Origin: Diplocarpon mali
Lineage: Eukaryota > Ascomycota > Leotiomycetes > Helotiales > Drepanopezizaceae
Reading direction: 5' to 3'
Length of the DNA: 28,874 bases
NCBI GenBank assembly: GCA_024741835.1
Contig: JAENRP010000453.1
Coordinates: forward strand, 1-28,874
This document shows positions 113 to 28,319 of this stretch, piece by piece. Numbering within the stretch: the stretch's first letter is position 1; each line of letters starts with the position of its first letter. Made by a program: the position numbers and the translations under genes. Under the pieces are notes generated by a model, which was not told the DNA's origin, made no database searches, and saw only the letters and a program-made list of their open reading frames with translations.

Positions 113-427
113 TCTTAGCCTAAGAGTTATTTCTATAAATTTCACTTGCGATCCTAGCTTAAGAGTCGTTATTAGTAAATTTATAAAATCCACTCGCAGT
201 CCTAGCTTAAGAATCATTTTTACTAAATTCACTTATGATCCTAGCTTAGGAGTCATCTTTAAGTATTGCATTCTACCTATAGTCCTAGCTTAAAAGTTAT
301 TTTCGCGAATTTCACTTGCAATCCTAACTTAGGAATCCATCTATTCTCCTTATCCTCGCTTAATTGTATTAAGGCAAAGAGTGCACTTTCCTTAAAGGAA
401 TCTACTTATAAGTCTGGCCTAGGAGTT
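113..427. repeat. Telomere-adjacent array of 25-bp palindromes
   Basis: Six full 25-bp palindrome copies lie at 143-167, 191-215, 230-254, 274-298, 313-337 and 403-427, and a seventh right arm lies at 118-128, directly against the telomere. Successive right arms start 39, 48, 39, 44, 39 and 90 bp apart, so the region behaves like an irregular minisatellite. On the minus strand the array continues the copia-1A polyprotein frame. Each copy reads as the same Thr-x-x-x-x-Leu-x-x-like octapeptide, apart from one frame change near the 44-bp interval. Confidence 0.85.
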
Positions 428-1875
428 AATTTCTATAATATTACCTTTGAAATAATATAAAGTCCATCTTTAATTTTAGCCTTAAAGATCACTTTATAAT
501 TATTATTTATAAACTATATAAATTGATTATTAAAAACTCTTATATAATTCAACTCTATATAGATCTTGCGGTTAGATAAAAGATTAATGCCTAGGCTAAG
601 TATAAGGAGAACATTTTGCAAAAGGAAAGAAATGCTAGCGATATTCATCTTTACTATACCTATCGAGTCTGTATACAACCTTCTACTACCAACCTTAATA
701 GAGCGCCTTTTTATTTTAGTAAGCGGGCGGAGATCGGCTTTTAAGACGTAGGCATCTTTATTATAATTATTATCTGAATTATTAGAAGTGGATTTAGGTT
801 TAAATAACCTACTATTATTATCAAAGGTATCTACTGAAGTTTTGGCTAAAAAGCCTTTTCCTTTGCCTTTCCTTAATAGTTGCGGCCTTTAGTAGGATAA
901 GGGCAGTTTACTTCTTGACTTTTGCTTTAATTGCTTTTTAATATTAAAGCTAGTGACTATATCGATCAGTTGCCTTTTAACTTTACAATTAGTAATATTA
1001 TAAGTACTATTATAGAAGTAGCATCCTTAATAAGCTTAAGGGCTCGTCCTGCGCTCTTTCCTCTTCTCGGGCTTATTATTGCCTTATAATATGGCATTTG
1101 CCGATTTAAAGCGTCCTTTAAAGTCTTACTTAATAGTTTAAAGGAGGTCGATCTTCTTATAGATCTTAAGGTTAGGTTAGATAAGAAGAGATTGTTTTAC
1201 AATAGCAAACTTAAGAGGGAGGCTATTAAATAGGAAACTAAAAAGCTGAATTTCCTTAAAAGTTATAGCTATCCTAGGATTTGCGGCTCTTACTCTCCTT
1301 CTTGCTTTATATAATATAAATTAAGTAGAGTTTATATTTATATCTATATCCTTACTATCTTTATCTTTTCTATATTAAAATAAAGTGATCTACTATAGTA
1401 GATACTAAGTATTAAAGGCAGTTATTTAAGAGTATTTTACCTTTAAAGTATCCTATCTTATCTTTGCGTTATTATAAATTTAAATAAAATCTCGGTCTTT
1501 ATCACTTAAACCTCTATTAATCTTAAGCTTACATTTAGCTAAGGCCAGCCTATACTCCTTCTTCTTTTCCATATTTAAAATCTGCCTTTAGGATTCTCGG
1601 TTATTATCTATTAAGACTCTTAGGCTAAGCTTATTTAATATATTTAGCAAATCCTTAGCAGTTGTATTAATTATTAAAGTAGAAGTAGACAAATCGGTAA
1701 AGGGAGTATAAGAGGCTATTCTCGCGTATTTAATAAGTATCTTTTGAATCGCTATTTTAATGCCTTTGCTCTTAAAGTAAAACTTTAAATCATTGAACTA
1801 TTATTGCCAGTTCTTTTAAAAGAGTTAGAGGTCTTTAGGTCTAGTGTTTCGATCGGAATCGGAAGCTATTGCCAT
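428..1875 (-). pseudogene. Copia-1A gag and start of pol, RIP-degraded
   Basis: The probable start is the ATG at 1875-1873, opening Met-Ala-Ile-Ala-Ser-Asp. The frame runs leftward with many TAA/TAG stops at Gln-like positions. An FNDLKFYFKSKG segment near 1800-1770 resembles the N-terminal part of copia Gag. A Cys-containing stretch near 1010-960 is in the place of the CCHC knuckle but is not intact. At about 700-560 is the copia pattern LLQNVLLILSLGINLLS, normally found just after the aspartic protease; the protease DTG itself is not recognisable. The frame then passes into the palindrome array. The product would be a nucleocapsid/protease polyprotein; it cannot be expressed now. Confidence 0.75.
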
Positions 1876-2263
1876 TTCGAATAGAATTGCATTTAAAATC
1901 AAATAAATTAAATAGTTAAAGGCACTCCTCCTATCGAAAAGTCGAAATGATTAAATAGTAGGTATTATAAAAGTATTAAATAAGGAAGAAGTCCTCTTAT
2001 CGAAAAGGGTTTTTAGGCTATAATGCAAGGAATCATACCTCTTACGAAATATAGTAAAGTAAGGAATTATACCTCTTGTAATACCAAAGGGTTATAGAGC
2101 AAGGAATCATACCTCTTATAATATAAGTTGGCTAAATAGGGAATTATACCTCTTATTCGCCGATTGCTCGCCTTTTACTATAAATCTCGTTCAACTTCCT
2201 ACTAATAGTTGCAGCGCAAGTGCTTTCTAAGGGAAGTTAATAATCTATTATCAGTCTATCTAA
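1876..2263 (-). repeat. Copia-1A leader with four tandem repeats
   Basis: This is the stretch between the primer-binding site and gag. It holds four imperfect copies of a motif close to AAGGAATCATACCTCTTA, beginning near 2026, 2061, 2101 and 2138, so 35-39 bp apart. Two related CTCCTATCGAAAAG/CTCTTATCGAAAAG copies lie near 1926 and 1994. No coding potential was seen. Short tandem repeats in the leader are common in LTR elements. Confidence 0.65.
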
Positions 2264-2275
2264 GGCTTATAACCT
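2264..2275 (-). promoter_or_regulatory. Candidate primer-binding site of copia-1A
   Basis: On the minus strand, immediately inside the LTR, the sequence reads AGGTTATAAGCC. With one RIP-type G-to-A change reversed it contains GGTTATGAGCC, which would pair with the anticodon stem-loop (CTCATAA) of initiator tRNA-Met. Copia elements often prime from such a half-tRNA. The two LTR copies of this family stop matching exactly here, which supports the position. Confidence 0.55.
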
Positions 2276-2469
2276 ATTGAGCTTAAGTAAGTCGGCGCAA
2301 TAGGTAATAGAAACTTCTAAAGGTCGATAGTCGATATATTAATAAGAGTTAGGGAAGGAAGGTTACCCCTTTCTTCCCTATAGCTATATACGTATCAATA
2401 TCCTACTAATTAAGCAATAGGGTCATATAATAATACATCGGAGTGATAGCTGTATCACCTATCTTAATA
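2275..2469 (-). repeat. Copia-1A 5' LTR (195 bp)
   Basis: This is an inverted copy of 3454-3648 with exactly the same length. On the minus strand it begins TATTAAGATAGG and ends GCTCAATA. Those ends are what RIP would make of the canonical TG...CA ends. Similarity stops at both edges, at the primer site on the inside and at the RNase H fragment on the outside. Confidence 0.85.
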
Positions 2470-2484
2470 TATTAAAGCGATTAT

Positions 2485-3135
2485 ATATACTATGGTATAT
2501 ATAAGACCAGATATCGCCTTTATTATAAGGTAACTTAGTCAAAACTTAAAGGATCCGACGATTCGATATAAGAATATAGTTAAGCGACTTAAAAGGTACC
2601 TTCGATCGATAATCATATAAAAGGTGAGATATAGACTAATAAAATATATAAGCGCAAAGCTTAAGGTATATACCGATTCCGATTAGGCAAATATAAAAGG
2701 TTAGAAAAGTATATCTAAAAGCGTAGTAATACTATATAGTAGACCTATATTGTAAAGAAGTAGGAAGTAGAAATCAGTAGCTACTGCAAGCACTAAGGCC
2801 GAATATATATTAATATTATCAAATTGCAAGTAAGGATTATAAATCGCTTAAGTTTTAAAAGATTTAGGTTTCGTTAAGTATATTAGATAGGATAGGAACT
2901 ATATTAATCTTTAAGTAGATAATATAAAGGCGATTGCACTTATAAAGAATCTATACTTATATAAGTGATTGAAATATATTAATATTGCTTACTACTTTAT
3001 CTGCAACCTTATTATAAAGAATAAGTTATTAATTACTTATATCCTAACTAATCGAATAGTAGTAGATAGATTTATAAAGCTATTAAAGATAATTGCAAAG
3101 TTCGAAGCGTTTAAAAATATATTAGGGTTATAGAA
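2485..3135 (+). pseudogene. Copia-1B RNase H domain, 5'-truncated
   Basis: Translation shows the strongly conserved end of a copia polyprotein. YIRPDIAF at the start is the copia YxRPDI motif that follows RT. VYTDSD near 2660-2680 carries a catalytic Asp of RNase H (usually YSDADWA). SVATASTKAEYI near 2775-2810 holds the ASTEAEY motif, with the catalytic Glu altered to Lys. VDNIKAIAL near 2915-2940 matches the DN.gAi.l motif, and an INIAYYFI segment matches the HIdvryHfIR motif. Multiple TAA/TAG stops fall at Gln positions. The fragment starts within 20 bp of the neighbouring LTR edge, so RT and everything before it are gone. Confidence 0.85.
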
Positions 3136-3453
3136 GATAGTAGGGGCTTAATAGGCTTAAGGACGACTCCTAAGCCTGCCCTGCGAGTCAAGTCATATAG
3201 TCTTATAAAGGAAAGTTTTTAAATCGACTCCTAGGCCTAGACCGCGAGTTAAGTTATATAATCTTATAAAGGAACGCTTTTAGGAAAATTAACTCCTAGT
3301 CCTGCCTTATAAGTAGAGTTTGGTAATTTTAATAAAGGTTGCTATTAATTGATTATTTTTAATTTAAAGAAATACTTAAGAGTTGGATTAGCGTAAAAGG
3401 ATAGTTATTATTTTCCTAATTATAGGTCAATTAAAGTAAGGTTTGAATAAGGG
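3136..3453 (+). other. Copia-1B 3' tail with three palindromes and polypurine tract
   Basis: This untranslated tail lies between RNase H and the 3' LTR. It contains three 25-bp palindromes at 3165-3189, 3226-3250 and 3291-3315, spaced 61 and 65 bp. The run GAATAAGGG at 3445-3453 sits directly against the LTR and is the expected polypurine primer for plus-strand synthesis, with some RIP damage. I see no other function. Confidence 0.6.
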
Positions 3454-3648
3454 TATTAAGATAGGTAATACAGCTATCACTCCGATATATTATCATATAA
3501 CCCTACTGCTTAATCAATAGGATATTGATATATATATAGCTATAGGGAAGAAAGGGGTAACCTTCCTTCCTTAACTCTTACTAATATATCGACTATCGAC
3601 CTTTAGAAGCCTCCTTTACCTACTGCGCCGACTTACTTAAGCTCAATA
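3454..3648 (+). repeat. Copia-1B 3' LTR (195 bp)
   Basis: It reads TATTAAGATAGG...GCTCAATA and matches 2469-2275 in inverted orientation over its full length, with mainly transition differences. The sequence after 3648 is unrelated to the copia leader, as expected for the outer edge of a 3' LTR. Left unmutated, the two copies 1 kb apart in inverted orientation would be able to pair as a hairpin. Confidence 0.85.
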
Positions 3649-3724
3649 TTTAAGCCCTTTTGAATTTCGAAGTACTCCTTTTAGCAACTAATCTTATAAT
3701 ATTAAAGCTTCCCCTTTGCCCCTT

Positions 3725-4960
3725 ATGGATTCTATCAACTTAGATAGTTAATATAAGATAATAATAGCCGCATTTAAGGCTATTACTAGTCACTTTCCCC
3801 TCCTTAGTTCCTCTAGTGCTCCTTACTTTATAAGAGCTAATATTACTAATTTCCTTAAAAAAATATAAGGAAACTTATTACAATTTTAGTATTATATAAG
3901 AGGATATGATTTCTTAGCTCCCTTACTATTATAACTATATAAGCAAAGATATTATTAAATCCCTCTTTAAATGGAAAACTTATAATTTATAAAAACTCCT
4001 TATTAAGGCTTTTAAATCTGAATTCTAAGAATTTGATAAATAGTAGATTCGTAATACCCTAGCTTTCTTAAAGGAATTTATTTTAGTTACTTATACTCCT
4101 AAGGAACTTAAGAACTACTATTAGACCTTTACTTGCGTATTAAATACCTTAATCGGCTAGAAAATACTTAGCAAAGTCGAAAGAGGTCGCCTTTTCTTAC
4201 TTAGATTACCTACTAGCCTTAGAAATAAGATTATTAAGTATTTTAAAATCAATAAGCAAGATCTTATAATATTTACCTTATTTAAGGAATTCTTAGCTTT
4301 TGCTTTAAAATCAGATCTTAATAAAAGAACTATTAATGCTATAGAGTAGGAAAAAGCCCTTACTCCCTCTTATACTAAAGACCTTAAGAGCCTGGTCCAA
4401 GAACACTCAAAGGCTTTAGAAGTTATAAAGGAGGTAAAGAAGAACCTAATAGTTATACCTTTTACTCGTAGGCCTAACTTAAGAGTAAGATCTAACCTTA
4501 GAATTAAGGAACTTAAGACTTCATTTGCAAAACTCCAAATCTAAAGCTTAAAAACTAGGATTAATAATCTCTTATAGGAAAAATAGCATATTCCTTAATT
4601 GAGTAATAGGTAAAACTCGGCTGTTATAAGCCAATTTAGTAGTTCCTATTACTAGACTTCTACTTCTTATCATTTGGAATAACTAATTAATATAAGAACT
4701 CAATAGTTGATTAAAGAAGGAGATAATAATCTTAATTAGCACTCTACTAATATTAATACTATAAGGTACTAAGGAAATAGCAATAGAAGAAGACTAACCT
4801 ACAACTTTTGCAATAATAAGAAACCTAATTGCCCTTTATATAAGTATTGCAATAAATATCCTCTTTTCTAATGTTTTATTAATACTAAGGTTATATATAT
4901 TAATAAGTATAGGATGCTTTGCATTAGAGATCCTAAGCTAGAAGCTATTCCTATTAAAAA
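3725..4960 (+). pseudogene. Gypsy-1 gag, RIP-degraded
   Basis: The first in-frame ATG at 3725 (Met-Asp-Ser-Ile) may be the start or an internal Met beside the truncation. The frame aligns with gypsy-2 gag: IIAAFKAIT near 3760, YFIRANIT near 3825, FALKSDLNKRTIN near 4300. It shifts by one base near 3860. One 25-bp palindrome at 4463-4487 is read in frame at the same gag position as in gypsy-2, so it predates their split. Past the region shared with gypsy-2, a Cys-rich stretch at about 4805-4880 (CNNKKPNCPLYKYC) is the likely remnant of the nucleocapsid. Gag would form the virus-like particle; about 20 stops prevent expression. Confidence 0.8.
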
Positions 4961-6790
4961 GCACTAGAATCGCTTATAGTTATAGACTATTCGAACGATG
5001 ATATATAATACGAAATAAGATAAGAATTTAGTCGAACGATAGCATATTATAGATATAAATACTAAAATTCTAACTTATATATATATAAGTATAATTAGCA
5101 ATCTACCTAAGGGAGTTCTTAAAGGCTTAGCTTTTAATTAAATAGCTATAGAAGTTAAAGGCATCTCTATCTTAAGATAGGTTAATAATAATATTTTAGC
5201 TAATATTAATACTACTTTTATATTTAAGAACCTTTGGAATTCTTAGCGTCCTTTTAAATCTTTTATTCTACTAATATTAATAAAACCAGCTAAAGTCCAG
5301 AAATCAGCGCGTGCAACTTAGGAATCTTAATATAAAGTCCAAACGCTAAAAGATATCTAATAATTTAAAACTATAGTAGACGAGGATAAAGCTAATAGGG
5401 CAGACGATTTAATTAGAGATATTATAAACGAAAGCGGCTTTAAGCTTAAAGATTAAGAAGTTAAAGTTATTACACAGACCCTTGACCTTAAGCGAAAGAG
5501 ATAAATATTAAAATAGGAAAAGTTTATTAATAAACATACTAATTCAACTATAATAGAGAAAGCTATAAAGAATGTTATAGCTTAGTAAATAAACCTTACA
5601 TTTAATGACCTATTTAGTTTAATTAAATAGTTTAATAAAGTATTAAGAAAATATATCCTAATTGCCTTTAAAGATTTAAATAATAATAAGGAAATAAAAA
5701 TTATAATACAAAAGAACTCTAAGAAACACTTAGCTTTAATTAAATGCCTTTAAATTGCAAAAGATAAAGGAACCTAAAGGTATTTTAATATTATAGTAAT
5801 AGCTTTAATATCTTAAAATATCAATTGAAATTATTAAATAGTTATAATAAAAAGCCCTATTATTATTTATTTAATAAAAGAATCAGTTAAAGTAAAGGCT
5901 TTAATTAATTATAGTTTAAAAGTTAATATAATAATAAGAAAAGTAGTAGAAATAGCTTAATTAATACTTATTAGTAATCGACTCCTTATTTATTCGACGA
6001 TCTTTAGATCGAAATACAATTTTAATAAATAGGTGAAAAATGTAAAGGTTAAAGTTAAAAGGATTATCAATTATACTGACTTTCTAATAATAGAGAATTC
6101 TTTAAATAATATTCTTTTAAAAATGCCCTTTATTTTAAAATCTTAGCTTATATTTAACTATTTTAAAGATAGTCTTATAAAAGCTAGTCTTTAGAATATA
6201 GATCGATCTTTAGAAGGATAAATGATTATTATAAAAGATATAGTAGAATTCTAAAATAAGGTTTTAAAAAACGATTGGCTAATATAAGGGCTAGGCTTAA
6301 TGCTAGTAAAGGAAAGCACTTAGTAAAGAGTTATAGCGAAAGGAAGGTAAGTTTTCTAATTTTAAATAATAGCGATTTAACTTATAAGCTTAACTTAAGA
6401 GTTAAATCTGGAATTTTAAAGAATAGTATAATAGGCGTTTTATTAGCTTAATAATTAAGAAGAAAGAAAAACAAAGTAAAGAAGAAAGTTCGTTTTATAA
6501 ATTTCGATAATTTACTAATTATTTTAAAAAACCTAAAAATTACTTATAAGTTGGACCTGCGAGTGAAAAACAATAATATTACTAATAATATTTCTATTTA
6601 CGCACTTTAAATTAATAACTTAGAAAATCTATTATTTGTTTTTAAAAAAGAAAATTCGGACCATTTTATAAGATTTTATAAAAAAGGAAAGAAGTAGAAA
6701 AGTATAATACTAGCTAATATTCGAACTATATATAAAAGTAAAGCAGATAAAGTACAACTAGTAGATTAGGGAATCTCTAATAGCTTAAAG
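4961..6790 (+). pseudogene. Gypsy-1 protease region and linker to RT
   Basis: A retropepsin-like domain lies at about 5850-6240. Its active-site segment at about 5905-5930 reads ALINYSLKVN where the family has ALVDSGSEVN, so the catalytic Asp-Ser-Gly has become Asn-Tyr-Ser, all explicable by C-to-T or G-to-A changes. About 100 residues further is LNNILLKMPFI, matching the protease LG.pfl segment. Upstream is a long charged linker without a recognised domain. Downstream, before RT, two 25-bp palindromes at 6379-6403 and 6541-6565 are read in frame as LTYKLNLRV and ITYKLDLRV. The protease would process Gag-Pol. Confidence 0.7.
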
Positions 6791-8480
6791 CTTAAAGGAT
6801 TAGATAATTAGTTGAAATAAGATAAGAAGCTTCGACCTTTAAAGCTAAGTAGCAAATTCGATAAGTTTATTATAGGTAGATTTTCTAATAAACCTATTGA
6901 ATATCGGCTAATAAAAGAGCGTTTTAATATATTGAAAATTAAAGATAACTTAATAGAATAAGAACGCGAACTACTTTATAAATCCTTAATAAATTGAAAG
7001 GACGCCTTAACTTTTGATTAGATTAAACTTAGCTAGATTTAAGAAGTCACGCCTTATATTAAGATTAAGATAATACCTTATAAAGCTTAATAAGAGAAAA
7101 CATTTAAAGTTCCTAAAGCTCTTTAAGAAAAGGTAATTGAAATACTAAAGGATAGGCTAAAGTAAAGCGTTCTCGAATTCTATAATAGCCCTTATAAGAA
7201 CAAATAGTTCTTAATTGTTAAAAAAGAAAAGGGAATTTATAAATTAATAATAGTAATAGTAAAGATGAATTAAGTTACTATTAAAGACGCTAACATTCCT
7301 TTAAATATAGATAAGTTCTTAAATAAATTCGTAGGATTAACCTATAGCTCTCTTATTAACTTTTGCTTTAAATATAACTAATTCATTCTTAATATTAAGT
7401 TAAGAGATATAATAGCAATTCAAACCCCTTTTAAGCTACTTTAGATAACTAGATTAACTTAAGAGGCTATAAATTCAATCGCTCAATTTATCTAAATAAT
7501 CTATAAGATACTAGTAGATTATATATCTAATATTGCGCTCCCTTATATAGACGATATAAGAGTAAAAGGATTAAGATCATTCTATAACTATAAGGAAGTT
7601 CTCCTTAGCATATAACAATTTATAATAGAATACATTTAAAACTTAGATTAGGTGCTTATATAATTTAAAAGAGCAAAAGTAATAGTTAGTCTAAAGTTAT
7701 AATACTATCTTTTATTAATAGAAATTGTTGGTTTTATTACTAATTCTAATAGCTAAAGTCTTTAAAAGGCTAAAGTACTTAAAATCGATAAATAGAAAAG
7801 GTATAATAATATGGTAGAAGCTCGCGCATTTATTAGCATTATAGTATACTATCGCATTTAGATTAAGGATTTTACTAAAAAGGCAGCACCTATTTACACC
7901 TTATTTTAAAAAGGGACTGAGTTTTAATAATAGGAACTTTAAATAGAGGTTATAAAACAACTAAAGCAAGTATTACTTAAAGTACTATATCTAATTAAAA
8001 TAGACTATAGGGCTGACGCTAAGCCAATTATACTAATAGTTGACGTAAGCCTAATTAAATAAGGTACTGTCTTTTAATAAGCTAATAACTAATAGAAAAG
8101 ACATTTAGCTTACTTTAAAAGCGGTCTTTAAAATCTAATAAAGATAAAGTATAATACTATTAAATAGGAATATAAAAGAGCTTTAAAAGTGATAAAAAAG
8201 ATAAGAAGCGACTTTTATAGTACTTACTTTATCTTTGAAACTAATGCTAAAGTGCTAGTAAAACAATTGAATAAATCTATAAGTGATTTTTTAAAAGCTT
8301 TACCAATAAAATGGATTGCTTAAATAAGACTAATAGACTTTAAAGTCAAATATATTTTAAGAATGAAAAATATTACTATAAATAGCCTTTTAAAAAGAAA
8401 TTATCCTTACCCCTTTGATTTAATTAAAGAAGAAGAAATAGATACTAATAAGTAAGTAGAGAACAAAGTTAGTTATCTTT
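6791..8480 (+). pseudogene. Gypsy-1 reverse transcriptase and RNase H
   Basis: The RT palm is readable. YKLIIVIVKMNQVTIKDANIP near 7240-7300 corresponds to the family's YR.vvd.R.LN..T..d..p. SLINFCFKYNQF near 7355-7390 is motif A (SLIDFFSGYDQ) with its catalytic Asp now Asn. LPYIDDIRVKG at about 7537-7570 is the catalytic YxDD box, with both Asp intact. RNase H follows: LIVDVS at about 8032-8049 keeps its first catalytic Asp, and FIFETNAKVLVKQLNK near 8230-8275 matches the f.v.TDhkpL segment, with Asp changed. KVKYILRMKNITINSLLK near 8345-8395 is the usual tether (G..N.vADaLSR). The enzyme would make cDNA; many TAA/TAG stops show it is dead. Confidence 0.85.
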
Positions 8481-9990
8481 TAATATATTGCCTTAAAGGG
8501 ATTGAACTTATAGTCCTAACCTATAAGTTAAATAAGAGAATTTTATTACCTAACTACTTAAGTGACTTTAAAAAAATCGTAAAATTTTTAATTACACTTA
8601 AACAACTAAAGATAGTTTTTTTTAAGGATTTTTAAAAGTTTAAAGCAAAAGCTTTGATTTATCTAATATAAGGAAGGCAATTATTTAAAAGGAGCCATAA
8701 CTTATTTCTTATATAACTCTATTTAAATAATAATAAACTATAAGCTAAGGCTATTAAAGATATTTATAAGGAGACAGGCTATTAAAGAGCTAAGTTTACT
8801 TACTATCGATTTTTAAAAAAATTCTTTTAAAAGGTTCTTTTAAAAACTGCAAAGCTTTTGTAAAAAGCTGCGTCCTTTATTAGAAATAAAAACCTAATTG
8901 TAAAGAGAATCCCCTATTCTTAACTTAGCTATTAAGCCTTTTTTATAAAGTTAGCTTTAATATTATATAAGTACTAACTATTAAGAATAGGATACTATAT
9001 TTTATTTTAACAAAAGAAGACCTATTTAAATAGCTAAAAGGACGACCTTTAAGATTTACTAACTTTAAATCTATTATAAAGTTCCTTTAAGAAGATGTAG
9101 TCTATCGCTATAGACTTTTTAATAGATTAACTATTAATAGAGGCCTTGAAAATAAAGGAGTAATTAAAGCTTTCTTATGAAAATATAGTTTTAAGTAGGT
9201 TCAAATCTTAGCGTATAACTCAAAAGCTAATAGAATAGTAGAATAAGGATACTATAATATTCTTAATAGTCTATCTAAAGTTACTTATAAAGGATTTAAG
9301 GATTAAATAAAACACTTTTATAAAATACTCTTTACTTATTAAACGATAATCTATAAACCAATTGGAGTTATACTATTCTTCCTTATTTATAGTAAAGAGG
9401 CATAGCTCCCTTTTAAATCTCGATAGCCTATTTAAAGATTATTCGACTATAGTCAAATTTAAAACCGTTCCGATTTATTTATAATAAGATGCCGACAACT
9501 TAAGCTTTAAGATATAAATATAAAGGAAATCATTCTATAAAAGAAACGATATAAGGAAAAAGCTAAAGAGGTATAAGCTACTTCTAAAGTACTTAAAACG
9601 TACCTTATTTAAAAAGATAATCTTATCTTAATCTATAATATTATAAGAAGTATTAATATATTAGCAGATACTAAACTTAACTATTAATAGCTTAATCTAT
9701 TTAAGGTTAAGTTTAAGTAGAAAGAAAAGGGATACTATTCTCTTTAAGAATTTAATAAAGTCGATATTAAAGGAACCTTTACAGCTAATTAACTAAAGCG
9801 CTTTTATTAATACAATTAAACCTTATTTCCCTTAAAAGACGAATTAGAAACTGGTATAACCTCTAAATCTTCTATAGGAACTAACGGCAATATAAGCAAT
9901 TTTAAGCCCTTAGATAAAGACTAAGATTTTTCCAACTTAACCTATAAGCCGGTCCTATAAATAAAGAATATTAAAATACCTAACTAATCA
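8481..9990 (+). pseudogene. Gypsy-1 integrase, RIP-degraded
   Basis: AIKDIYKETGYQRAKFTYYR near 8750-8810 is the HHCC zinc domain, in which both His (normally H...GH.G) have become Tyr, a CAT-to-TAT change. SIAIDFLID near 9100-9130 is the first catalytic-core Asp segment, followed by a degraded core to about 9340. Near the C terminus, KGYYSLQEFNKVDIKGTF and LKRFY (about 9725-9800) match the gypsy C-terminal GPF/Y-like strand region (G.Y.L..ldG....tf....LK.F). The integrase would insert cDNA; no target-directing chromodomain was recognised after it. Confidence 0.75.
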
Positions 9991-10351
9991 TAACCTTAAG
10001 TTATTATTTTTAAAATATCCGAAGAATATAAGTGGGAATATTAAATGATTTCTTAATCTATCAATTGTCCTACCTTCCTTTAATCCTTATTTTTTTTAAT
10101 AAAGTCGCCTCCTTTATTATTTAGGATATAGATCTTTTAGAATCATCCTAATTTCTTGCCTACTTTAACTTATTTTACATTCTTAATAATAGCCTTTAAT
10201 TATAGCATTCTTATTACTTTCCTTAAATAATAAATAAAAGTCCAATCTCTTTAATATATATATAGTAACCCTATTATAGCTTATATATACCTTTTAATTC
10301 TTATATCCTATTAAACTCTCTTATTTATACTCCCCATCTTTTATAAGTAAT
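9991..10351. other. Spacer between gypsy-1 and gene 1
   Basis: This 360-bp AT-rich stretch has no recognised frame. TATATATATAGTAACC near 10254-10270 and CTCTTATTTATACTCCCC near 10317-10335 are possible core-promoter elements for gene 1, whose first ATG is at 10352. If gypsy-1 had a 3' LTR it would lie here, but no second copy exists in the window to show it. Confidence 0.35.
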
Positions 10352-12971: not shown

Positions 12972-13082
12972 AAGAAGGCAGTAATAATAAGTATAGGAAT
13001 ATATCTTATAGTAAAATAAAAAAATAAAAAAAATTGCTAATAGCGCGCAATTAAAAATCCGATATCGTTAATTTAGCACCTT

Positions 13083-18373: not shown

Positions 18374-18746
18374 TTCCTAATATTATCCGAATATTGCTCT
18401 ACGCCCTAATAGGGTCCGAAAGAAGTCTAATATAGTCGTATTTTATATATTATTATACTATTATCTAATTATAATTAGGATATTAATTACACTCCAGTTT
18501 TACCCTAATTATAATGCGTAATAGAACGCAAGTAGAAGAGGATAGTATCTACCTTTAAAGTAATAACTCTAGCTAGATTCGCGTACCTTTCGCCTTTTCC
18601 CTTCTAATAGTAACTGATATTACTTCGTACGTTTAGGTTAGTATTTAAAGTAAGCCAGAAATACAATTAAGTACTCCTTAAATCAAGAAAGAATTCTTCA
18701 GTTTAATAACCTTACTATTTATAGTAAAGGTGCTACTACTAATTAG
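18374..18746 (-). other. Copia-2 5' leader
   Basis: This is the untranslated interior between the 5' LTR and the likely gag start. The sequence just inside the LTR (minus strand CTAATTAGTAGTAGCACC) should hold the primer-binding site, but I cannot match it to a tRNA. A short repeat, TAATTATAATTAGG and CCTAATTATAATG, occurs around 18468-18513. No frame was seen. Confidence 0.5.
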
Positions 18747-18972
18747 TATAGGTTCTATACTAGTAATCGATATTCATATGAATATAGTTAAGTACTTATT
18801 ATTAAAAAGAATCTATTATAATATCTATCTATCTCTATATAACCGAGATAGTACCTTTATACTTATAAATATCCTCCCTCCTATAGTCCCTCCTAGCCGT
18901 ATATGGATATCCTTCCGAAGTCCTCTAGCTAAATAGCCGTCCGAAATACATACGAAACCCCTCATATCGCAT
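18747..18972 (-). repeat. Copia-2 5' LTR, first 226 bp (split by gypsy-2)
   Basis: It matches 11047-11272 base for base in length, beginning TATAGGTTCTATAC and ending ATATCGCAT, where gypsy-2 starts. The rest of this LTR resumes at 21916. Differences from the left LTR are transitions, consistent with RIP. Confidence 0.92.
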
Positions 18973-19219
18973 TATAGAGACCTGGAAGTGGAGGATCTTG
19001 TGATATAGGTCATATAGTCGGATGAGGATCAAGAAAGGGGTATAAATAGGACTACTATTATACTTAGAGATAGCGCGTAATGCCAACTACCTATTCTACC
19101 TCTAACTAGTGAATTGTCCTAGTTCTTATCTTTAGAAAGCCTGCTTATAGTGCTTCTTCCCTCTTTGTCTTTAGTCTTCCCTTAGGCCTATTCTTATATT
19201 ATTCCTACTCCCTCTTATA
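18973..19219 (+). repeat. Gypsy-2 5' LTR (247 bp)
   Basis: It begins TATAGAGACCTGG and ends CCCTCTTATA, RIP-altered TG...CA ends. It contains a clear TATA box, TATAAATAGG at 19041-19050, about 70 bp from the left edge. Against the 3' copy the first 60 bases differ almost only as TGG/TAG, TG/TA and CA/TA pairs, a textbook RIP pattern. Confidence 0.9.
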
Positions 19220-19667
19220 TTAGTGACCTATGTAGGGACGATTCTTTTAAGATTTCGTCTTTATATGACTTCTCCTCTTAATTCTCTTAGTTTGCAAATA
19301 AGAGATTAACCCTTTGAAAACCCCTTTTAAAACAATAATTATTCAATTATTTATAACTATCGGTTATTACTCCTCTATTATCGACCTTACAATCATTTAG
19401 TTATTTGGAACTATCGATTGCCACTCTCTACTATTACTAACCTTAGATTTTCCTATTTCGGCCCCTATTCCGCCTCTCCTACCTCTGATTTAAAAAGCTT
19501 AAATTGTTAGCTTATTAATACGATTGTCGGATTTCCAGCCTTTCTAATATAAAGAAGTTTAATTAGCTATGATAGCTACTTTAAATAATAGCAGTTTTAA
19601 GTATTTATATAATATTAAACAAAAGCTCTAATTAGGAGTATCTTCTCAGTTTTCTTAAAAAGTTAAA
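19220..19667 (+). other. Gypsy-2 leader with primer-site candidate and duplication
   Basis: TTAGTGACCTATGTAGGGACG begins directly after the LTR and is the expected primer-binding site region (TTGGTGACC before RIP); I cannot name the tRNA. An imperfect direct duplication of about 55 bp lies at 19336-19389 and 19391-19446 (shared AACTATCG...ACT(C)CTCTA...ACCTTA). The remainder is pyrimidine-rich, untranslated leader. Confidence 0.5.
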
Positions 19668-21330
19668 ATGGATACTTCAGCTGCCCCTACTTAATAGAAC
19701 TTTGAAAACTGCCCTAGAATCGTCTCTAAAGACCCCTTTATTCTAAGGACTAATAAGAATTGTCCTAAAAGCTAAGATAAATCTTTCTTAGAAACTTTAT
19801 CTTAGAAATTAGTCTTTGACTTAATAAACCTTTTCTTATTACTAGTAATTGCAGTACCCTTATTTATTGCTTTGCACCTATTAAAGAAGTCTTAGCGAAG
19901 TATAAATAAACTTTCTGTAGAAGGCGGATTTTTACTCTTAGGCCAGGCTTGCGAGTAGGAATATAAAAATACAATTTTATATAACTCAAGTTCTTTATCT
20001 TCCCTTTTGATAATTGCACTTGCTTTTTTAATATTAATACTTGAAAATACTAAAAATATCAATTTTAAACCTCCTTCCAACCCTTTGCCTAAATCTTTTC
20101 AAGCTCGCCTTAATTACTTTAAGATTGACTCGGATTCTAAAAACTCTTTAGAATACCTTAGGCCCTATATTCGACCTAGCTCTCCTCCTATCGAAATAAA
20201 TAAAGCGATAATAGCCGCCTTTAAAGCTATTACTAATCATTTTCCCTTTCCTAGTTCCTTTAGCGCTCCTTATTTTACTAGAGCTAATATTACCGATTTC
20301 CTTAAATAATATAAGGAGACTTATTATAATTTCGGCATTAGATATAATAAGATAATTAATTGACTTCCCTACTATTACGACTAAATTAGCAAAGATATTA
20401 TCAAATCTCTACTTAAGTAGAAGCTTTATAAGTCTTAGGAACTACTTATTAAAGCTCTTAAGTCTAAATTCTAAGAATTTGATAGATAGTAGATTTATAA
20501 TACTTTAGCCTTTCTAAAGGAGTTTATTCTTATTACTCGCACTCTTAAGGAACTTAAAAACTACTATTAGACCTTTACTTAAGTATTGAATACCTTGATC
20601 GATTAGAAGATTCTTAGTAAAGTTGAAAGAGGATGCCTTTTCTTACTTGGATTACCTACTAGCCTTTGAAATAAGATTATTAAGCATTTTAGGATCGATA
20701 AGTAAAACCTTATAACCTTTGCCTTATTTAAGGAATTTTTAGCCTTTGCTTTAAAATCAGATTTTAGTAAGAGAACTATTAATATAATAGAAAAGGAAAA
20801 AGAGCCTACTTCCTCTTTTATTAAAGATCTTAAAAGCCTAGTATAAGAATATTCGAAGGCTTTAGAGGTTATTAAAGAGGTAAAGAGAAATCTAATAGTA
20901 ATTCCCTTTACTTGCAGTCCTAGCCTAGGAGTGAAATCTGCCTTAAAAATCAAGGAACTCAAAGCCTAGTTTTCCAAACTCTGCATTTAACGTTTAGAAA
21001 CCTTAATCAAAGGCCTTCTTTAGGAAACTTATCGCGCCTTTTAGTTTAGTAATCAATAGGCTTTAAAAGGCAAAAACTAGCATATGAACTCTAAATACCT
21101 AAATCTAGCTTCCCTTAGGTTAAATAAGCGAGTTGCTACCTTAGAAAGGCTTAATAATCGTATATAGCTATATTAAAGAAATTCCTAGATTATTAGTCGA
21201 ATTTTATATAAAGCCTAGATTTTCTTTAGCAAGGACGCCTTTTAAGTTAGTTAGGGCATATATGCTTAAGATTACTTGAAATTTTCTTCGAATTTTCTTT
21301 GAAATTGCGATTTAATAGCTTTGATAATTT
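19668..21330 (+). pseudogene. Gypsy-2 gag
   Basis: One frame runs without a shift from ATG 19668 (Met-Asp-Thr-Ser-Ala-Ala-Pro) for about 540 codons, through some 40 TAA/TAG stops at Gln positions and a few TGA at Trp positions. A hydrophobic stretch (LFLLLVIAVPLFIALHLL, near 19825-19880) and a Ser/Pro-rich region precede the conserved core IIAAFKAITNHF (20208), YFTRANITDFL (20270), FLLGLPTSL (20640) and FALKSDFSKRTIN (20745). Two palindromes lie in it. The one at 20909-20933 is shared with gypsy-1; the one at 19933-19957 is read in a different frame. No zinc knuckle was found. Confidence 0.8.
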
Positions 21331-21664
21331 CGAGCTTTTAACTTGCGGGCCTGGCCTAGGAGTCGCGTTACTAAAGGAGGAAAAGGAGTTTTTATTATTT
21401 TTATTCGTTTACTACCTTACCTTCCTCCTTCCCCTTCTCCTTCTATATATATTTCTTTAAAATCCATTCGCAAGCTTAACCTATGAGTTAAAAAAAAAAA
21501 AAAAAAAAAAACCCTCTTTCCTCTTCCTACCTTTATAACTTTAAGTACTAACCTTACTTGCACTTATTGTTTTTATAAATAGGAATTGGTATTCTCGACC
21601 TACAAGAGTCTTATATTCTTTGCTAATAGTAGCAGGGGCCGCTACTTAAGTTAATTAGGGCATA
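21331..21664 (+). other. Gypsy-2 3' tail: palindromes, A22 run, purine tract
   Basis: This untranslated tail contains palindromes at 21340-21364 and 21465-21489; the second is followed at once by 22 uninterrupted A residues (21490-21511). GTTAATTAGGGCATATA directly before the 3' LTR repeats GTTAGTTAGGGCATATA at 21245-21261, so the polypurine-type junction sequence is present twice, 400 bp apart. Confidence 0.55.
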
Positions 21665-21911
21665 TATAAAGACCTAGAAGTAGAGGATCTTATAATATAG
21701 GTTATATAATCGGATAAGGATTAAGAAAAGGGTATAAATAGGACTACTATTATACTTAAAGATAGCGCGTAATGCTAACTACCTATTCTACCTCTAACTA
21801 ATGAATTGTCTTAGTTCTTGTCTTTAGAGAGCCCGCTTATGGTGCTTCCTCCCTCTTTGTCTTTAGTCTTCCCTTAGGCCTATTCTTGTGTTGTTCCTAC
21901 TCCCTCTTATA
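21665..21911 (+). repeat. Gypsy-2 3' LTR (247 bp)
   Basis: It has the same length and order as 18973-19219, begins TATAAAGACC and ends CCCTCTTATA, with the TATA box at 21733-21740. Some sites are more RIP-mutated than in the 5' LTR and others less (CTTGTGTTGTTCC against CTTATATTATTCC), so the two copies were mutated independently after insertion. Confidence 0.9.
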
Positions 21912-21988
21912 GCATATGGTACAGCTGTGTAAGATGACCTTAGGAACAAGGGCAGCTTGCCTCCTATATAGGAATCTGCGTACCAACA
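21912..21988 (-). repeat. Copia-2 5' LTR, last 73 bp, after duplicated GCAT
   Basis: GCAT at 21912-21915 is the gypsy-2 target duplication. From 21916 the sequence continues the LTR exactly where 18972 left it and ends TACCAACA at 21988, retaining an unmutated CA terminus. It aligns with 11273-11345 (73 bp). AGTTT at 21989-21993 is the right target duplication of copia-2. Confidence 0.92.
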
Positions 21989-22143
21989 AGTTTGCTTATT
22001 TTAAAAGAGAACTAGTCTCTTATACCAGAGTTTAAATAAGATTTCTTTAATAATAAAGAAGGGAATTGGTTATTTATAATTAAGCCTACCTTATAATTCG
22101 CTTCTTAGCTTAAAGATATAATAAGTGCTAAATTACGTAATTT

Positions 22144-22175
22144 GACTTGCGGTCTTAAACTAAAACTTAGAAGTA
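22144..22175. repeat. Expanded palindrome in gene 1
   Basis: The left arm GACTTGCGGTC is normal but the centre is about 7 bp longer than in all other copies, and the right arm ACTTAGAAGTA is degenerate. It is still in the common reading frame (Thr-Cys-Gly-Leu-Lys-Leu). Confidence 0.55.
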
Positions 22176-23525
22176 AGAATTTTAAAACTAGACCTAACCT
22201 ACCTTTTGCTAAAATGATTTTAGAAACTGCTATCGAGTAAACTGCTTAAACGCTTAATGTAGCCTCTTTAGAATTTTCAGAATCTTTAAAGGACTCTCCT
22301 TTAGTTAAACGACCTATTTTAACTTAACCTTAAAGAAGGATAGATCGTTTAATAGCCACTTTAACTAACTTGCAATTTAAAACTAAAGGATTGCGCGCCT
22401 ATTTAAACTCCTTTTTTAATAACTTAAAGAGCTAGTTCTTAATTTCTATATATTTATATATAACTACTTTAAAAATAATAATATAAGGGAAGACCCTATT
22501 CCTATTGCTTTAAAGATAATTAAAAGAGCCGTTAGATAGATTTAATAGCTTACCTTAAACAAATTCGCCCTTATAGATATTATTTAATTCTTTAATAATT
22601 ATAAAAATTAAGAACCTAATCTCTTAGATATTAAGCGAGACTATTTTATCTTACAAGAAAGAGAACGCAAAGAGGAATCTATTAATTAGAATATTTGTAA
22701 TTATAGCAATATGCTGCAATTAGTTATTCTTAACCTTAAGCTTAAAGAAAGATATAATATTTAAATATCCTTTATAATAAAAACTCGCTTTCGATAGTAT
22801 CTTCTTAATATAAGAATCAAAAGGAGAAGACTTTGCGACCTTTATATTTGCTCTCTTTCAATTTACTATAGTCTTAATAATAAAGGATTTAATATTAATA
22901 AAGTTATGAAATACCTTAAACTTCTTTATATAGCAAAAGATACTGATCTTTTTCTAATCTACTTTAATTAATTCTTTATCTCTTTAAAGATACGCAAGTC
23001 TAACCTATTAATAATAGAGGTATTATTAGGTATTGCAAAATTTAGGGCTGATCTTAAAGCCTTAAAGGCATTAAAGCCAATTGAATAGAACAATTCTTTC
23101 TTTTTAATATTATTAAGTAATAAATAGTAAAAGGAAATAGAAGAAGAAGGGTTAATTATAATACTTAAACCCTTTAGATGCCGCTTCTTAACCGATAATT
23201 TTACTACTAATAATAGTACTTTTATAAGTATATTCCTTTCTATTATATAATAAGAAATAGAAATATATCTTTATCATTTCTAACCTATAGATAACGCAAC
23301 CTTTATACCTTTTTGCTTTTTCTATAATATAATATTTAGTCTTATTTAATAAGTCCTTCAAATGTACTATAGACTCTATATCTCAGCTATAATAGCGAAA
23401 AGTAAAGAAGCCTATTAGTTTATCGCTTACCTTAAACCTCTTTAATTAATTGGCCTTAGTCTTTATAGTTAGATTATTTTAATAAAAAGAGATATAAGTA
23501 CTATTAATAAAGAAAATCCGATTAT

Positions 23526-23550
23526 TACTTATAGTCCTAGCCTACGAGTC
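23526..23550. repeat. 25-bp palindrome in gene 1, middle copy
   Basis: It reads Thr-Tyr-Ser-Pro-Ser-Leu-Arg-Val in frame; the right arm GCCTACGAGTC is well kept. Confidence 0.8.
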
Positions 23551-24410
23551 AATTTTATTAGTAAGCGAGTCTTAGATTATTAGATCCTACCAATCGGATA
23601 AGGACCTGCTTTAGGAAGCTTTAATAGGTAGATCGGCTCTTAGTCAAATATAAAACTTACTCTATTTATAAAGAAGATAAGTCGATAGACTTTTTAAGCA
23701 CTTAGTTCAAAATCTTAACTAGCTTAAATAGCTGTAGAAATAAAGTAAAAAGAGATCTTGCGGCCTATTACTAATAATAGCAATCTAATTATAATAATAA
23801 TAAAACAAGGGCACCTTTTTAAAATGCTTTTAAAAGAACCTTATAAAACTAGTAGTTCTATAGCCTTTTGCAATAACTATATAGCTATTTATAATAATAA
23901 TACTTTAGAAAATAATACTCAAATCTCTAATTTTATCTTTTTAATCTTTGCTTTAAATTAACCTTTAGTACCTTAATAGATTAATATAAGTAGAACTATT
24001 ATACCTTTTAAAGTAGCTTTTCATCTTAAGAACTATAGTAGCCTTTTTAAAGCTATTATTAGTTAGCGCTTTTAAATAGATCCCTTAGTTATAATCGAAG
24101 TATAGGAGTTATTCCTTCTTAATAAGGATAAATTGAAAATCTACCTTATAAAATATAATTAAAAACTCTTTAATACCCTTATTAATACTTAAACGAATGT
24201 TATAAATACTAAGTCGCTTCTTTATAAACTTAAGTTTTAAGGATAATGCGATAAAGTAAATACTATTTAAAAGCCTAATATACTAATTGATAAAGGCATT
24301 ATTATAAGAAAGTTCGGAAAAGAGACGAACTAAGACGTTAGTATAGTATTAGACCCTTATTTGAGAACCAATTCCCTATTTTTACCTTTAAGCTTAGAAA
24401 TGCTAAAACT

Positions 24411-24435
24411 AACTTGCGAGCCCGGCTTGCGAGTA
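24411..24435. repeat. 25-bp palindrome in gene 1, C-terminal copy
   Basis: One of the best preserved copies: AACTTGCGAGC-CCG-GCTTGCGAGTA has near-perfect arms and reads Thr-Cys-Glu-Pro-Gly-Leu-Arg-Val. Confidence 0.85.
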
Positions 24436-24684
24436 AGGTTAGACTCAGCTGGCTTAAGCCTATAAGATAGTTCGGATAAACCTCGGTTATCAAATCTAAG
24501 GGTATTAATAAAAGATCCTTTAAAAGAGGTCCTTAAAGCTGAGAAATCGCTAAGAAGTAAGAGCTAATATAAAAGAAGAAGACTTTAAAGTCATAATAAA
24601 ACTGATAATTAAATTGAACGATCTAAAGAACCGAGTCTACTCCCTTTTAAAAACCATTTAGAGAAATTGCAAATTAGAAGTTGA

Positions 24685-25142
24685 ATTTTTAAGATTATCT
24701 ACTTTCTATATACCTATACCTCTTTATTCTTAACCTATTATTCTATTTTATATATATTCTTTATTTACTTTACTCTTTATATAATTTATTCTTTAATTAT
24801 TCCCTCTATATATAGCTTTCTAACGCTTACCTTTAAAATATCGTCTTTACCTTTAACAATTATCATTTACCAATTGTAGGTCCTTATATGCGTTATACCC
24901 TACTTTTGTTCCTACTTTTAGCCTCTTTATGCCTACTTTTCCTTTGCGCACTAGTATAATTCTAAACTCTATAAATAAGCCTCTCTCCTTCCTTGCACTA
25001 CGATTTTACTTTCTTTAGTTTTTCTATAGCCCTACTAGACCCTAGTACTAGCACTAGCAATACTACTACTACTATATTCTATTATCAATTCTTTCTTAAT
25101 ATAAGCTTACTATCTTATTAATCTTTTTTAAATAAGCTTCTA
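24685..25142 (+). promoter_or_regulatory. Intergenic region, likely gene 2 promoter
   Basis: The 458 bp hold no frame. CTCTATAAATAAGCC near 24967-24981 is a good TATA box, followed by a CT-rich stretch (CTCTCTCCTTCC) and then the first ATG at 25143, about 170 bp downstream; this is a normal fungal promoter layout. Three CCTACTTTT/CCTACTTTTAGCC-like repeats lie at 24900-24945. The left part is AT-rich and might include the gene 1 terminator. Confidence 0.45.
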
Positions 25143-26065
25143 TGAGTTCTATCATCCTATCCTTATTAAATAATTCATTATAGCACTACTAAGCTTAAGC
25201 AAGAAGGCTATACTTAAGAAAAATATATCAGTTGTTACCTTAAGTAGTAAGTCAATAAATACCGCTAGCAATAAACTAATGCTAAAGGGTAGCTTTTTAT
25301 AAGATAGAAAAGCTTTAAGATCATTAGAAGATATTATAACTACCTATAGAACGTTAGGTAAAACGGAGCAATAAGTATTCCTAAATTCGTCTATTGAAGT
25401 ATTGAACTATAGAATTTCTACTATTAAAGAAGGATTTTTAAAGTTCGACGATTTTCTTAAGAAAGAGCTTAAGACTAAGGGAATTGATTGGGAAAAGTTT
25501 CTATAAGAATATTAAAGGTATATTAATTTAATTGATTTATTTTAAAGAATCGAAATAAGAAAAATAAGTGTATAAAAAGACTTATGCAATTTATAAATAG
25601 AATATGTAGAACGCTCTTTTAAAGCCACTTTATAAATGATATTACTATTAAAAATGCTCTATAAGGATTTGGCAAGATTTTTAAGACGTACTAACCTACA
25701 GTAAGAGCGATATAGGTATTAAATCATTTCATTATATAAGAAGGAATGAAAAAGCTATAGGGAAATAACGTTAGAAGTAGAAAATTTATAGGGTTCTTAA
25801 GTATTATTATATACTCTACTAGTTAAACTATAAAAGACGATCCTTTATAATATAATAATTTTACACTTCTTCATCAGACTATTTTAAATACCCTTAGCTT
25901 ATAATAGTTATAATATAGTCTACTTATAGTAAGGGAGAAGATAATCTATCTAGCTAAGTATATTATAAACTACTTTAATAATAAGATAGAAAAATAGGAG
26001 TTTATTATACCTATCGCTTAGAAAATGCTGCTACCCTTAGCGGATTCAACTAACGAGCCAGATTT

Positions 26066-26090
26066 GACTCGTAGGCCTAGCCTATAAGTA
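26066..26090. repeat. 25-bp palindrome in gene 2, copy 1
   Basis: It reads Thr-Arg-Arg-Pro-Ser-Leu-stop-Val in the gene 2 frame and keeps the left arm GACTCG and the centre GGCCTAGCC. Confidence 0.8.
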
Positions 26091-26242
26091 GAAGCTCTAT
26101 ATAATAAAGATTCCTTTAAGTATAAGTTGCCTATAACACCTTATATATAAATAATAGACTACCTTAACCGCTAATTATCTAAGTTAAACGACTTTGATTC
26201 CCTATCTTTTAAAATCCCTTAAATACTTATAATAATAAAATC

Positions 26243-26267
26243 GACTCGCGAGCCTAGCCTATAGGTC
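26243..26267. repeat. 25-bp palindrome in gene 2, copy 2
   Basis: Left arm GACTCGCGAGCC is nearly unmutated; the right arm GCCTATAGGTC has lost pairing. In-frame reading is Thr-Arg-Glu-Pro-Ser-Leu. Confidence 0.8.
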
Positions 26268-27472
26268 GATATATATAATATTATTAACTCAAATAGTAAT
26301 TTATTTAATAAAGATAATAGTATAACCATTAACGTATTGGAAATTTTTAATAATAGTAAGAAAGATATATCTGACCTTATATAGACTTTTCCTAAAGACC
26401 TATAAAAGTTTATACTAGAATTTTATAAGTCCATAATAAAGCGTTTGAAAAGGGAAGACTAAGAAGAAGTTTTATTAGCGTAAGAAGGGATAGCAAGAGC
26501 TATTAAATAGATTATAAAGCTTTAAGAAAATGGATTTTCTATTAATAATATTATATAGTTTTTTATTAAGTATAAAAAGCTAAAGGGTGATTACTATATT
26601 CTTAAAGAAAAATCAGACAATAGTACGATAATTATTTTTATAGAGTATTATAAAGTCCCCTTTAATATTAAGATAATACTATAGTATAGTAATAGATTCA
26701 GAATTATAGTAACGCTAGAAATGAAGATACGATTAAGCAGATTTATAATAGGAATGTTTAAAGACTTCAATTTCGAAAAATTTTATACTCTTTATAAATG
26801 ATAATATATATAATATTATAGATTGGTAATAGCGTCTCTAACTAATGAATAAGTCTCCTTTAATATATATAAATTCTATACTATACTTAACCTAACTTTA
26901 TTCTTATTGCATCTTAGAAATTATATAATTGTAGCCGCTAATAGCAAAATGGCTAATTAGATTAAGAAAGATATATCATTAGGTTTTGCGAAATTTAATA
27001 TAGCACTTAAGGCTTTAAAATTGTTTTATAATATCTCCTAGACCCTTGCTTAATATAAGTCTATACTAACCTTAAACAACTTTATATTACTTTATAGCAA
27101 AAGCTTTTTAAATATACCTAAACTATTTAATTGCGCATTCTTAAGTATAATGCGTATATAAGGCTATAGTATTCGTAAGAAGAGTTCGTTTATAACCTTA
27201 GTATAAAAAGAGGTAGAAATATATAGATACTATTTCCGTACCTTAGATAAGAAATCATCGCCACCTTTTGCCTTCCTTTATAATATAACTTATAGCTTAA
27301 TATAATAGATATTAAGGATATATTATAGATTATATCTTAGTGCTCTATTAACTTATTATAATTCTTTATATAAGCTAATAGCTTATCTTAAGCCTATATA
27401 ATTTATAAGGATTGACTACTATTTAAAAGTTATTACTATTAAAATTAATACTAATATAAGGTTTGTAAAATC

Positions 27473-27497
27473 GACTCCTAGGCCTAGCTTATAGGTC
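27473..27497. repeat. 25-bp palindrome in gene 2, copy 3
   Basis: Left arm GACTCCTAGGC is of the CCTAGG type rather than the CGCAGG type. In-frame reading is Thr-Pro-Arg-Pro-Ser-Leu. Confidence 0.8.
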
Positions 27498-28294
27498 AGC
27501 TCCCTTAATAGTAGAACTATTAATTATTATATAACTCCTATAGTAAAATAATCTATTAGAGAATTTGCAGTTTAGGAAAAATCATATAAATTATTAAGTC
27601 TTATACTCTACTATCTTAAGAATGCTTAATAGGTCTTACTTAATCTAGTATAGAGCGCAGCATAGTAGAAAGAACTAAATACTAAGGATAGAATACTATT
27701 AAAGGAGTATATTTCTAATAAGACCGCTCTATTTTCTATATTTATAAGATAAGGTACTTTTATAGACTTGGACTTTGATAGAAAGCCTAGAAAAGGAGGT
27801 TTTCTAACTATTAGCAATATTTATATAGAAGTTGTTAGTAATAATTCACTTAAGAATAGCACTAACTTAAAAGATTTTCTTATCGACTTACTTAATGTAA
27901 AGAGATTAAGTATAGCAAGCTAGGGCGTAGTAGGAGAATCTTCTATAAAGTTCCATATAACCCTTAGTATAACGAAAGGTGGTCTATTATCAGAGGCCCT
28001 TATAGGTAGAAGATTATAGAATAACTTATTAGTAGTAATGATAGTAAAGGAATTGTTTTTTAAAGATATGATATAATTAATAATATATTTAAAGAGATAT
28101 GAGTAAGAACTCTTTAAAGATTTTTCAAATATATAGAAGATGATTTAACAATTAGAACTATAGCTATATAGAGATAAATTATAAACTAAGACGAAAGGCA
28201 ATAATAACGATATTAAGGCTGATAATATAATTGATAAGACGATACTTCTTGAGAAGTATAGTATTAAGAAACCCTATGCTATAACCCTTAATAC

Positions 28295-28319
28295 AACTCC
28301 TAGGCCCGGCCTATAACTT
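28295..28319. repeat. 25-bp palindrome in gene 2, copy 4
   Basis: AACTCCTAGGCCCGGCCTAT... reads Thr-Pro-Arg-Pro-Gly-Leu in frame. The centre CCCGGCC is one of the few without the TA dinucleotide. Confidence 0.8.

Follow-up and report, generated by a model that had tools for sequence, protein, structure and literature searches.

What is the short palindrome that recurs through one end of contig JAENRP010000453.1 of the fungus Diplocarpon mali (assembly GCA_024741835.1), and how did it come to lie in so many places? The window, by which we mean the whole 28,874-nt stretch analysed, is a contig end and AT-rich, with 23–36% GC in 1-kb steps. Within it an imperfect 25-nt palindrome with the core ACTNNNAGGCCTAGCCTNNNAGT occurs in 24 full copies and one half copy, in agreement with the initial annotation, which had described such a repeat and proposed a minute mobile or otherwise spread insert tolerated as a peptide linker. 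The palindrome is dispersed, lies in the linkers of transposon proteins, is read in frame there in both orientations and in two frames, is retained within families and, in one family, is conserved beyond what its peptide would require. We think it probable that it is an ancient ultra-short dispersed DNA element that entered transposon linkers before the families carrying it expanded.

A search of the window with the literal 25-mer, allowing up to 3 mismatches, returned no match because the copies differ by transitions. When C/T and A/G changes were scored as half matches, 29 places reached the threshold of at least 24, against 0–3 in each of 10 Markov shuffles. Six of these were excluded (287, 2821, 7326, 14108, 15531 and 22989), and the copy at 3291, missed by the score, was added. 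Position 287 overlaps the copy at 274, and the other five combine poor palindromy with scores of 24–28 that shuffles reach too.

The initial annotation had also proposed a genome-wide search. Across the 49.4-Mb source genome (676 contigs), ACTNNNAGGCCTAGCCTNNNAGT is matched 4,308 times at up to 2 mismatches, and the reversed pattern used as control 6 times. Only 24 of 60 sites in the R family, a high-copy coding repeat described below, pass this cutoff (in 20 loci fetched by flank similarity alone), so the true copy number may be of the order of ten thousand, on a calibration from one family. The copies are not confined to one ancestral repeat: the 136 sites with up to 4 mismatches in the loci examined form 27 flank clusters, some of which merge neighbouring sites and several of which are 4-mismatch singletons probably due to chance, and a hand-picked list of 27 contexts contains about 24 non-homologous ones, at least three contexts being tandem relatives. 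They comprise gypsy and copia polyprotein linkers, the high-copy coding repeat, an element with terminal inverted repeats (TIRs) and a subtelomeric array.

The flanks of the 27 contexts are dissimilar beyond about 6 nt. Within those 6 nt the copies share a symmetric context, RAWTYN...NRAWTY, in which position −2 is a pyrimidine in 27 of 27 contexts and +2 a purine in 26, with T at −3 and a pyrimidine at +6 in 22 each and a purine at −6 in 23. No base is preferred at −1 or +1, yet these two positions are complementary to one another in 12 of the 27 contexts, 6.8 being expected (p 0.02). The RAWTY pattern may reflect preference for a target or belong to the element as its outermost portion.

Where the palindrome is read from its second base it encodes Thr-x-Arg-Pro-x-Leu-x-Val, and stops are fewest in this frame, whichever the strand, in 16 of the 24 window copies and 18 of the 27 flank clusters, one third being expected (the palindrome's own codons were left out of the count). 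The initial annotation, which had the base-2 frame used nearly always and base 3 in a likely coding region only once (19933), was right about the preference, too absolute about its extent and mistaken about base 3, which is used at 8505 and in its homologues in loci L054, L066 and L069 as well. Both orientations occur on coding strands; a reverse pair in the copia locus L026 reads TREPGLGV and TRRLGLGV.

The placement of copies in linkers, another of its claims, agrees with the Pfam coordinates of fetched homologues, some domain matches being below cutoff. In the gypsy family that we call gypsy-A, palindromes at residues 486 and 501 of locus L011 follow reverse transcriptase (75–231) and RNase H (to 428) and precede an H2C2 zinc domain (584–629; E 0.15, under the Pfam cutoff), and locus L022 has two palindromes upstream of reverse transcriptase. 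The gypsy-A linker contains a 45-nt (15-codon) palindrome-bearing tandem unit in 1 to 3 copies (for example in L011, L014, L019, L025, L027, L028 and L030). In a second family, gypsy-P, locus L066 carries a palindrome at 426, flanked by RNase H (to 364) and H2C2 (from 501), two domain matches that exceed the cutoff, and a second copy downstream that reads TYKPVLRV; the two palindromes differ from the search core by 4 and 5 mismatches and were recognised through homology to L069, L054 and the window. The RNase H–integrase linker thus reads STPRPSLRV in gypsy-A and RLASPACES, in the base-3 frame, in gypsy-P, and this use of different frames in the same linker argues for separate entries and against a function of the peptide. 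The reverse pair of copia L026 lies at 483 and 501 between gag (196–302) and Pol_BBD (522–591), and an array follows the SH3 domain (889–958), all three Pfam matches being below cutoff. Pfam scans of locus L010 and of window stretch 3700–6700 gave no convincing domain. In gypsy-A, columns with transversions number 13 at third positions against 4 and 3 at the others, which fits the base-2 frame, and an L012-type family has no clear codon period in its transversions. The first conservation figures for the gypsy-A cluster mixed neighbouring sites and were left unused.

Window 24560–27580 belongs to the R family (475 candidates, 133 scored). Its reading, of which 520 residues were tried, has no Pfam match; among 26 aligned copies, mean transversions by codon position are 0.080 at the third against 0.031 and 0.022 at the others, and this concentration indicates that the region was protein-coding, with the palindrome in the base-2 frame. 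A recognisable palindrome stands at all three sites in 26 of 26 copies, and in four further subfamily copies sites 1 and 2 are filled. Transversions occur in 2 of 69 columns inside the palindromes and in 247 of 1,491 in the flanks, and at third positions in 1 of 21 inside and 141 of 499 outside. Site 1 is partly biased, five copies having been retrieved by a perfect match to it, whereas no such bias affects sites 2 and 3 (2 of 46 columns). At site 3 of locus L009 (2917–2939) the loop reads TAG, while the other 25 copies have CTA or its transitions (1 of 78 sites), possibly a loop inversion. Separately, in locus L099 (C94:6480–6889) a sequence like the subtelomeric array (window 313–427) is apparently joined to an R-family copy near a palindrome.

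Pieces of the genome taken by contig number mostly lie near 50% or near 30% GC, with few between, and the palindrome is found mainly in the AT-rich transposon compartment, which resembles the product of repeat-induced point mutation (RIP). All 30 loci fetched for a perfect match have at most 35% GC, and in 1-kb pieces of 24 loci chosen independently of the palindrome, the 37 kb below 38% GC contain 19 matches at up to 4 mismatches, the 10 kb of intermediate GC contain 1 and the 49 kb above 44% GC contain 2. Copies differ mostly by transitions (CGC to CGT, TGC or TAT; centres CCG, CTG, CCA and CTA), a pattern that fits RIP striking palindrome and host alike, and R-family transition rates differ little between the palindrome and its surroundings. 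The core is without CpA, which should help to keep it recognisable under RIP. A second arm form, CCT/AGG, is not derivable by transition. Among 149 copies with up to 3 mismatches in loci L002–L102 and the window, the arm pairs are 53 CCT/CGC, 53 CGC/CGC, 41 CGC/CCT and 2 CCT/CCT, so that CCT stands in both arms in 2 of 149 against about 16 expected of independent arms, in a sample dominated by few families. No exact match to ACTCSNAGGCCTAGCCTNSGAGT was found in bacterial/archaeal or viral contig collections, and a plasmid search with a 1.5-kb element piece gave no match.

We favour a DNA-level unit with many entries into linkers because the hosts are unrelated, both orientations occur, two frames are used at an equivalent linker, the flanking context is symmetric and third positions are conserved in one family. 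The unit would be a 23-nt core (ACTCGCGAGCCCGGCCTGCGAGT in GC-rich copies like the one at L066:1278) inside a degenerate symmetric RAWTYN context on both sides, inserted in either orientation at about 24 separate places, both coding linkers and non-coding stretches, of transposon families that already existed. Coding insertions would have survived where the peptide stayed open, mostly in the base-2 frame; the host transposons would then have multiplied the palindrome to about ten thousand copies, and RIP would have mutated hosts and palindromes together. We infer that the palindrome moved as a unit, that its dyad or hairpin symmetry mattered for the movement and that the movement has now stopped.

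Several results weigh against this explanation. Queries made of flanks alone, which should rank empty sites first, found none among 91 measured places in the source genome (4 of them the queries' own). In gypsy-A, 10 spanning places have 23 extra nt (best 40 of 174 candidates) and 28 paired halves have 68 (24 cases), 113 (3) or 77 (1), mostly 23 + 45n, with 2 halves unpaired. The R family gave 14 spanning places, 13 with 23 nt and 1 with 24 (best 40 of 107), the remaining 26 matching by the left flank alone with a right partner for just one; the two gypsy-P sites gave 39 spanning places, all with 23 nt, and one half (best 40 of 504). BLAST returned nothing at one gap setting and no empty site in the site-spanning alignments at the next, nor did flank pairing yield one. 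Within the scored part, entry therefore seems older than each family's expansion, and the palindrome seems ancestral within each family measured; what stands of the insert first proposed is the dispersed in-frame DNA unit in linkers, and its mobility is inferred. A Y1 transposase search of the genome gave no hit at E 0.001 (5 of 14 control genomes were positive), and no mobilising enzyme was identified. Among 88 combinations of offset and length, the lowest p for a target-site duplication, such as a miniature inverted-repeat transposable element (MITE) would have, was 0.002, and we claim none; a 5-bp duplication, which with the 25 nt would make 30 and account for frame keeping, is not borne out (65 matches against 61 expected, p 0.23). 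The 45-nt arrays vary by whole units, as ordinary tandem repeats do. In the R family the palindrome is conserved beyond what a passively tolerated linker should show; equally transversion-poor 23-nt windows make up 4% of the R region for site 1 and 9% for sites 2 and 3, so a single R site is weak evidence. The gypsy-A, L012-type and paired loci differ almost only by transitions and are unusable as a conservation test.

Some gypsy families may be free of the palindrome. The H2C2 domain was used to fetch 16 gypsy loci (out of 150 scored matches); of these, L066, L069 and L070 carry the gypsy-P palindrome and the other 13 have no match at up to 3 mismatches within about 1.5 kb. We take 4–5-mismatch matches in the 13 (one 4-mismatch match each in L071 and L074) to be chance, and absence is unproved by mismatch count because the real L066 copies themselves score 4 and 5. 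Eleven of the 13 exceed 40% GC and two (L074 and L075) do not. Absence, if real, would fit stopped activity or families never invaded. Loci of one type (L063–L065, L067, L068, L072, L074 and L075) show a recurrent 4–5-mismatch resemblance about 1.3 kb from H2C2, absent in L065.

The near absence of R-family transversions, third codon positions included, the symmetric flank preference and the occurrence in non-coding elements could also mean that the palindrome is a functional site, a protein-bound dyad or a hairpin in the RNA (about 10 bp of stem, 3-nt loop) that serves the transposons or host control and was kept or acquired by selection and not through mobility of its own. Of three real copies folded, two are more stable than all but 2 of 200 shuffles (−13.1 and −9.1 kcal/mol), but the third is no more stable than its shuffles (z 0.19), no shared placement with respect to the ends of elements was apparent, certain gypsy families seem free of the palindrome, and many families would have to converge on the same 23 nt; we consider such a site unlikely. 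Somewhat less credible again is a shuffling of modules, in which template switching or gene conversion carried one ancestral linker with its palindrome, or a few of them, among retrotransposons, with no independent mobile unit: dissimilar flanks past about 6 nt and the use of different frames by two gypsy families in one equivalent linker speak against it, in spite of tandem 45-nt units in several families, the apparent junction of array and R family in L099 and the conserved flank context.

Selection on the peptide itself, with Thr-x-Arg-Pro-x-Leu-x-Val as a protein motif such as a protease cleavage site at polyprotein junctions, would explain the interdomain position in gypsy and copia polyproteins and the favoured base-2 frame. 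We hold it improbable, given that third positions are conserved, that gypsy-P uses the base-3 frame, that the reverse orientation yields TRRLGLGV and that the palindrome is present at a frame-breaking spacing in the element at window 3165–3315. As for chance or a RIP artefact, in which RIP-resistant GC-rich remnants merely look alike, a CpA-free core should indeed outlast its surroundings; the excess over the reversed pattern and the shuffles already refutes this reading, and we give it practically no weight.

Passages of PMC10969869 and PMC2996958 describe coding palindromes of Rickettsia (the Rickettsia palindromic element, RPE), Wolbachia and Methanocaldococcus as in-frame palindromic families, typically in non-structured protein segments. 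Here too there is a palindromic family, with a hairpin in two of the three copies folded, present in frame in coding sequence. RPE, however, is about 150 bp long, was first reported as 44 insertions and lies in bacterial genes, whereas the D. mali palindrome has 25 nt, thousands of copies and transposons, not ordinary genes, as hosts, in a genome with eukaryotic retrotransposons. The parallel drawn in the initial annotation is thus one of behaviour, not of membership, and we do not class the palindrome as an RPE, since it differs in size and in targets and no empty site has been demonstrated. It may be the counterpart, in a eukaryote, of the coding palindromes of Rickettsia: a selfish unit of about 25–35 nt with a RAWTY-like insertion context that parasitises the polyproteins of other transposons; this we put forward tentatively. 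PARCEL, as outlined in part of PMC2996958, is dyad-symmetric coding DNA in tandem arrays, linked to mobile elements and found partly in eukaryotic microbes. It resembles our palindrome in coding symmetry, arrays and mobile-element link, but is a 25-residue amphipathic repeat whose palindromes vary in sequence and phase, against one 23-nt core and an 8-residue peptide here; the translations scanned have no Pfam match to its DUF285-like domain. Neurospora GC-rich palindromes and Podospora ultra-short elements are reportedly very short palindromic or invasive elements of fungal mitochondria. Fusarium A/T palindromes and Allomyces double hairpins, also mitochondrial, are judged mobile from their optional presence in a passage of PMC7218506. 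Our copies share with all of these the very short palindromic or invasive character in a fungus and differ in lying in coding linkers, on contigs with telomere repeats and long terminal repeat retrotransposon genes. Repetitive extragenic palindromic (REP) elements are partnered by REP-associated tyrosine transposases (RAYT). The former are described in part of PMC3733652 as 20–40-bp palindromes in high copy; they are extragenic and prokaryotic, and no Y1 transposase was found here.

Searches of the open-access literature, judged by titles and abstract openings, turned up no description of such an element in a fungal nuclear genome; most subscription papers lie outside it. If the tentative reading as a eukaryotic counterpart of RPE is correct, the palindrome would be among the smallest insertion elements known from nuclear genomes, with hosts that are themselves selfish elements. 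Coding palindromes, so far a matter of bacteria and archaea, would then reach into a fungal nuclear genome, inside other mobile elements and in numbers at least a hundredfold greater. With about ten thousand RIP-marked copies, the spread of so small a unit and the making of protein linkers from short in-frame inserts would become open to study.

Positions of the palindrome copies and adjoining features in the window
Feature	Position	Strand	Basis or remark
Telomere repeats	1–113
Right half of palindrome adjoining telomere repeats	113–127	.	Sequence; family D9
Subtelomeric array, copies 143–167, 191–215, 230–254, 274–298, 313–337	143–337	.	Transition-tolerant score; spacings 48, 39, 44, 39
Subtelomeric palindrome	403–427	.	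Transition-tolerant score
Three copies (3165–3189, 3226–3250, 3291–3315) in TIR repeat	3165–3315	.	Spacing 61 and 65, hence not one frame
Palindrome in open stretch IVIPF-TRRPNLRV-RSNLRI	4463–4487	+	Homologue at 20909
Palindrome, TYKLNLRV	6379–6403	+
Palindrome, TYKLDLRV	6541–6565	+
Palindrome, RNase H–integrase linker of gypsy-P, base-3 frame	8505–8529	+
Palindrome downstream of gypsy-P integrase zinc domain	9939–9963	+
Palindrome homologous to L012:1501	19933–19957	.	Base-3 frame most open
Palindrome homologous to 4463	20909–20933	.
Palindrome	21340–21364	.	Transition-tolerant score
Palindrome	21465–21489	.	Transition-tolerant score
Palindrome	23526–23550	.	Transition-tolerant score
Palindrome, TCEPGLRV in + frame	24411–24435	.
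R-family site 1	26066–26090	+	Frame holds a stop in window copy
R-family site 2	26243–26267	+
R-family site 3	27473–27497	+
Palindrome, with the surrounding base-2 frame open on both strands	28295–28319	.

The excluded place at 7326 (score 28) lies upstream of the gypsy-P RNase H region, in what we take, without a Pfam match, to be reverse transcriptase; in L066 the homologous start continues as protein, and no match within 5 mismatches is present there. The open stretch around 4463, likewise without a Pfam match, we take to be gag-like. The three copies at 3165–3315 are tandem relatives of one another and lie in a 1.37-kb repeat (window 2275–3648) with 195-nt TIRs that are 92% complementary. 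This repeat is itself high-copy in the genome, with 556 candidates for a 231-nt piece, 40 of them scored.

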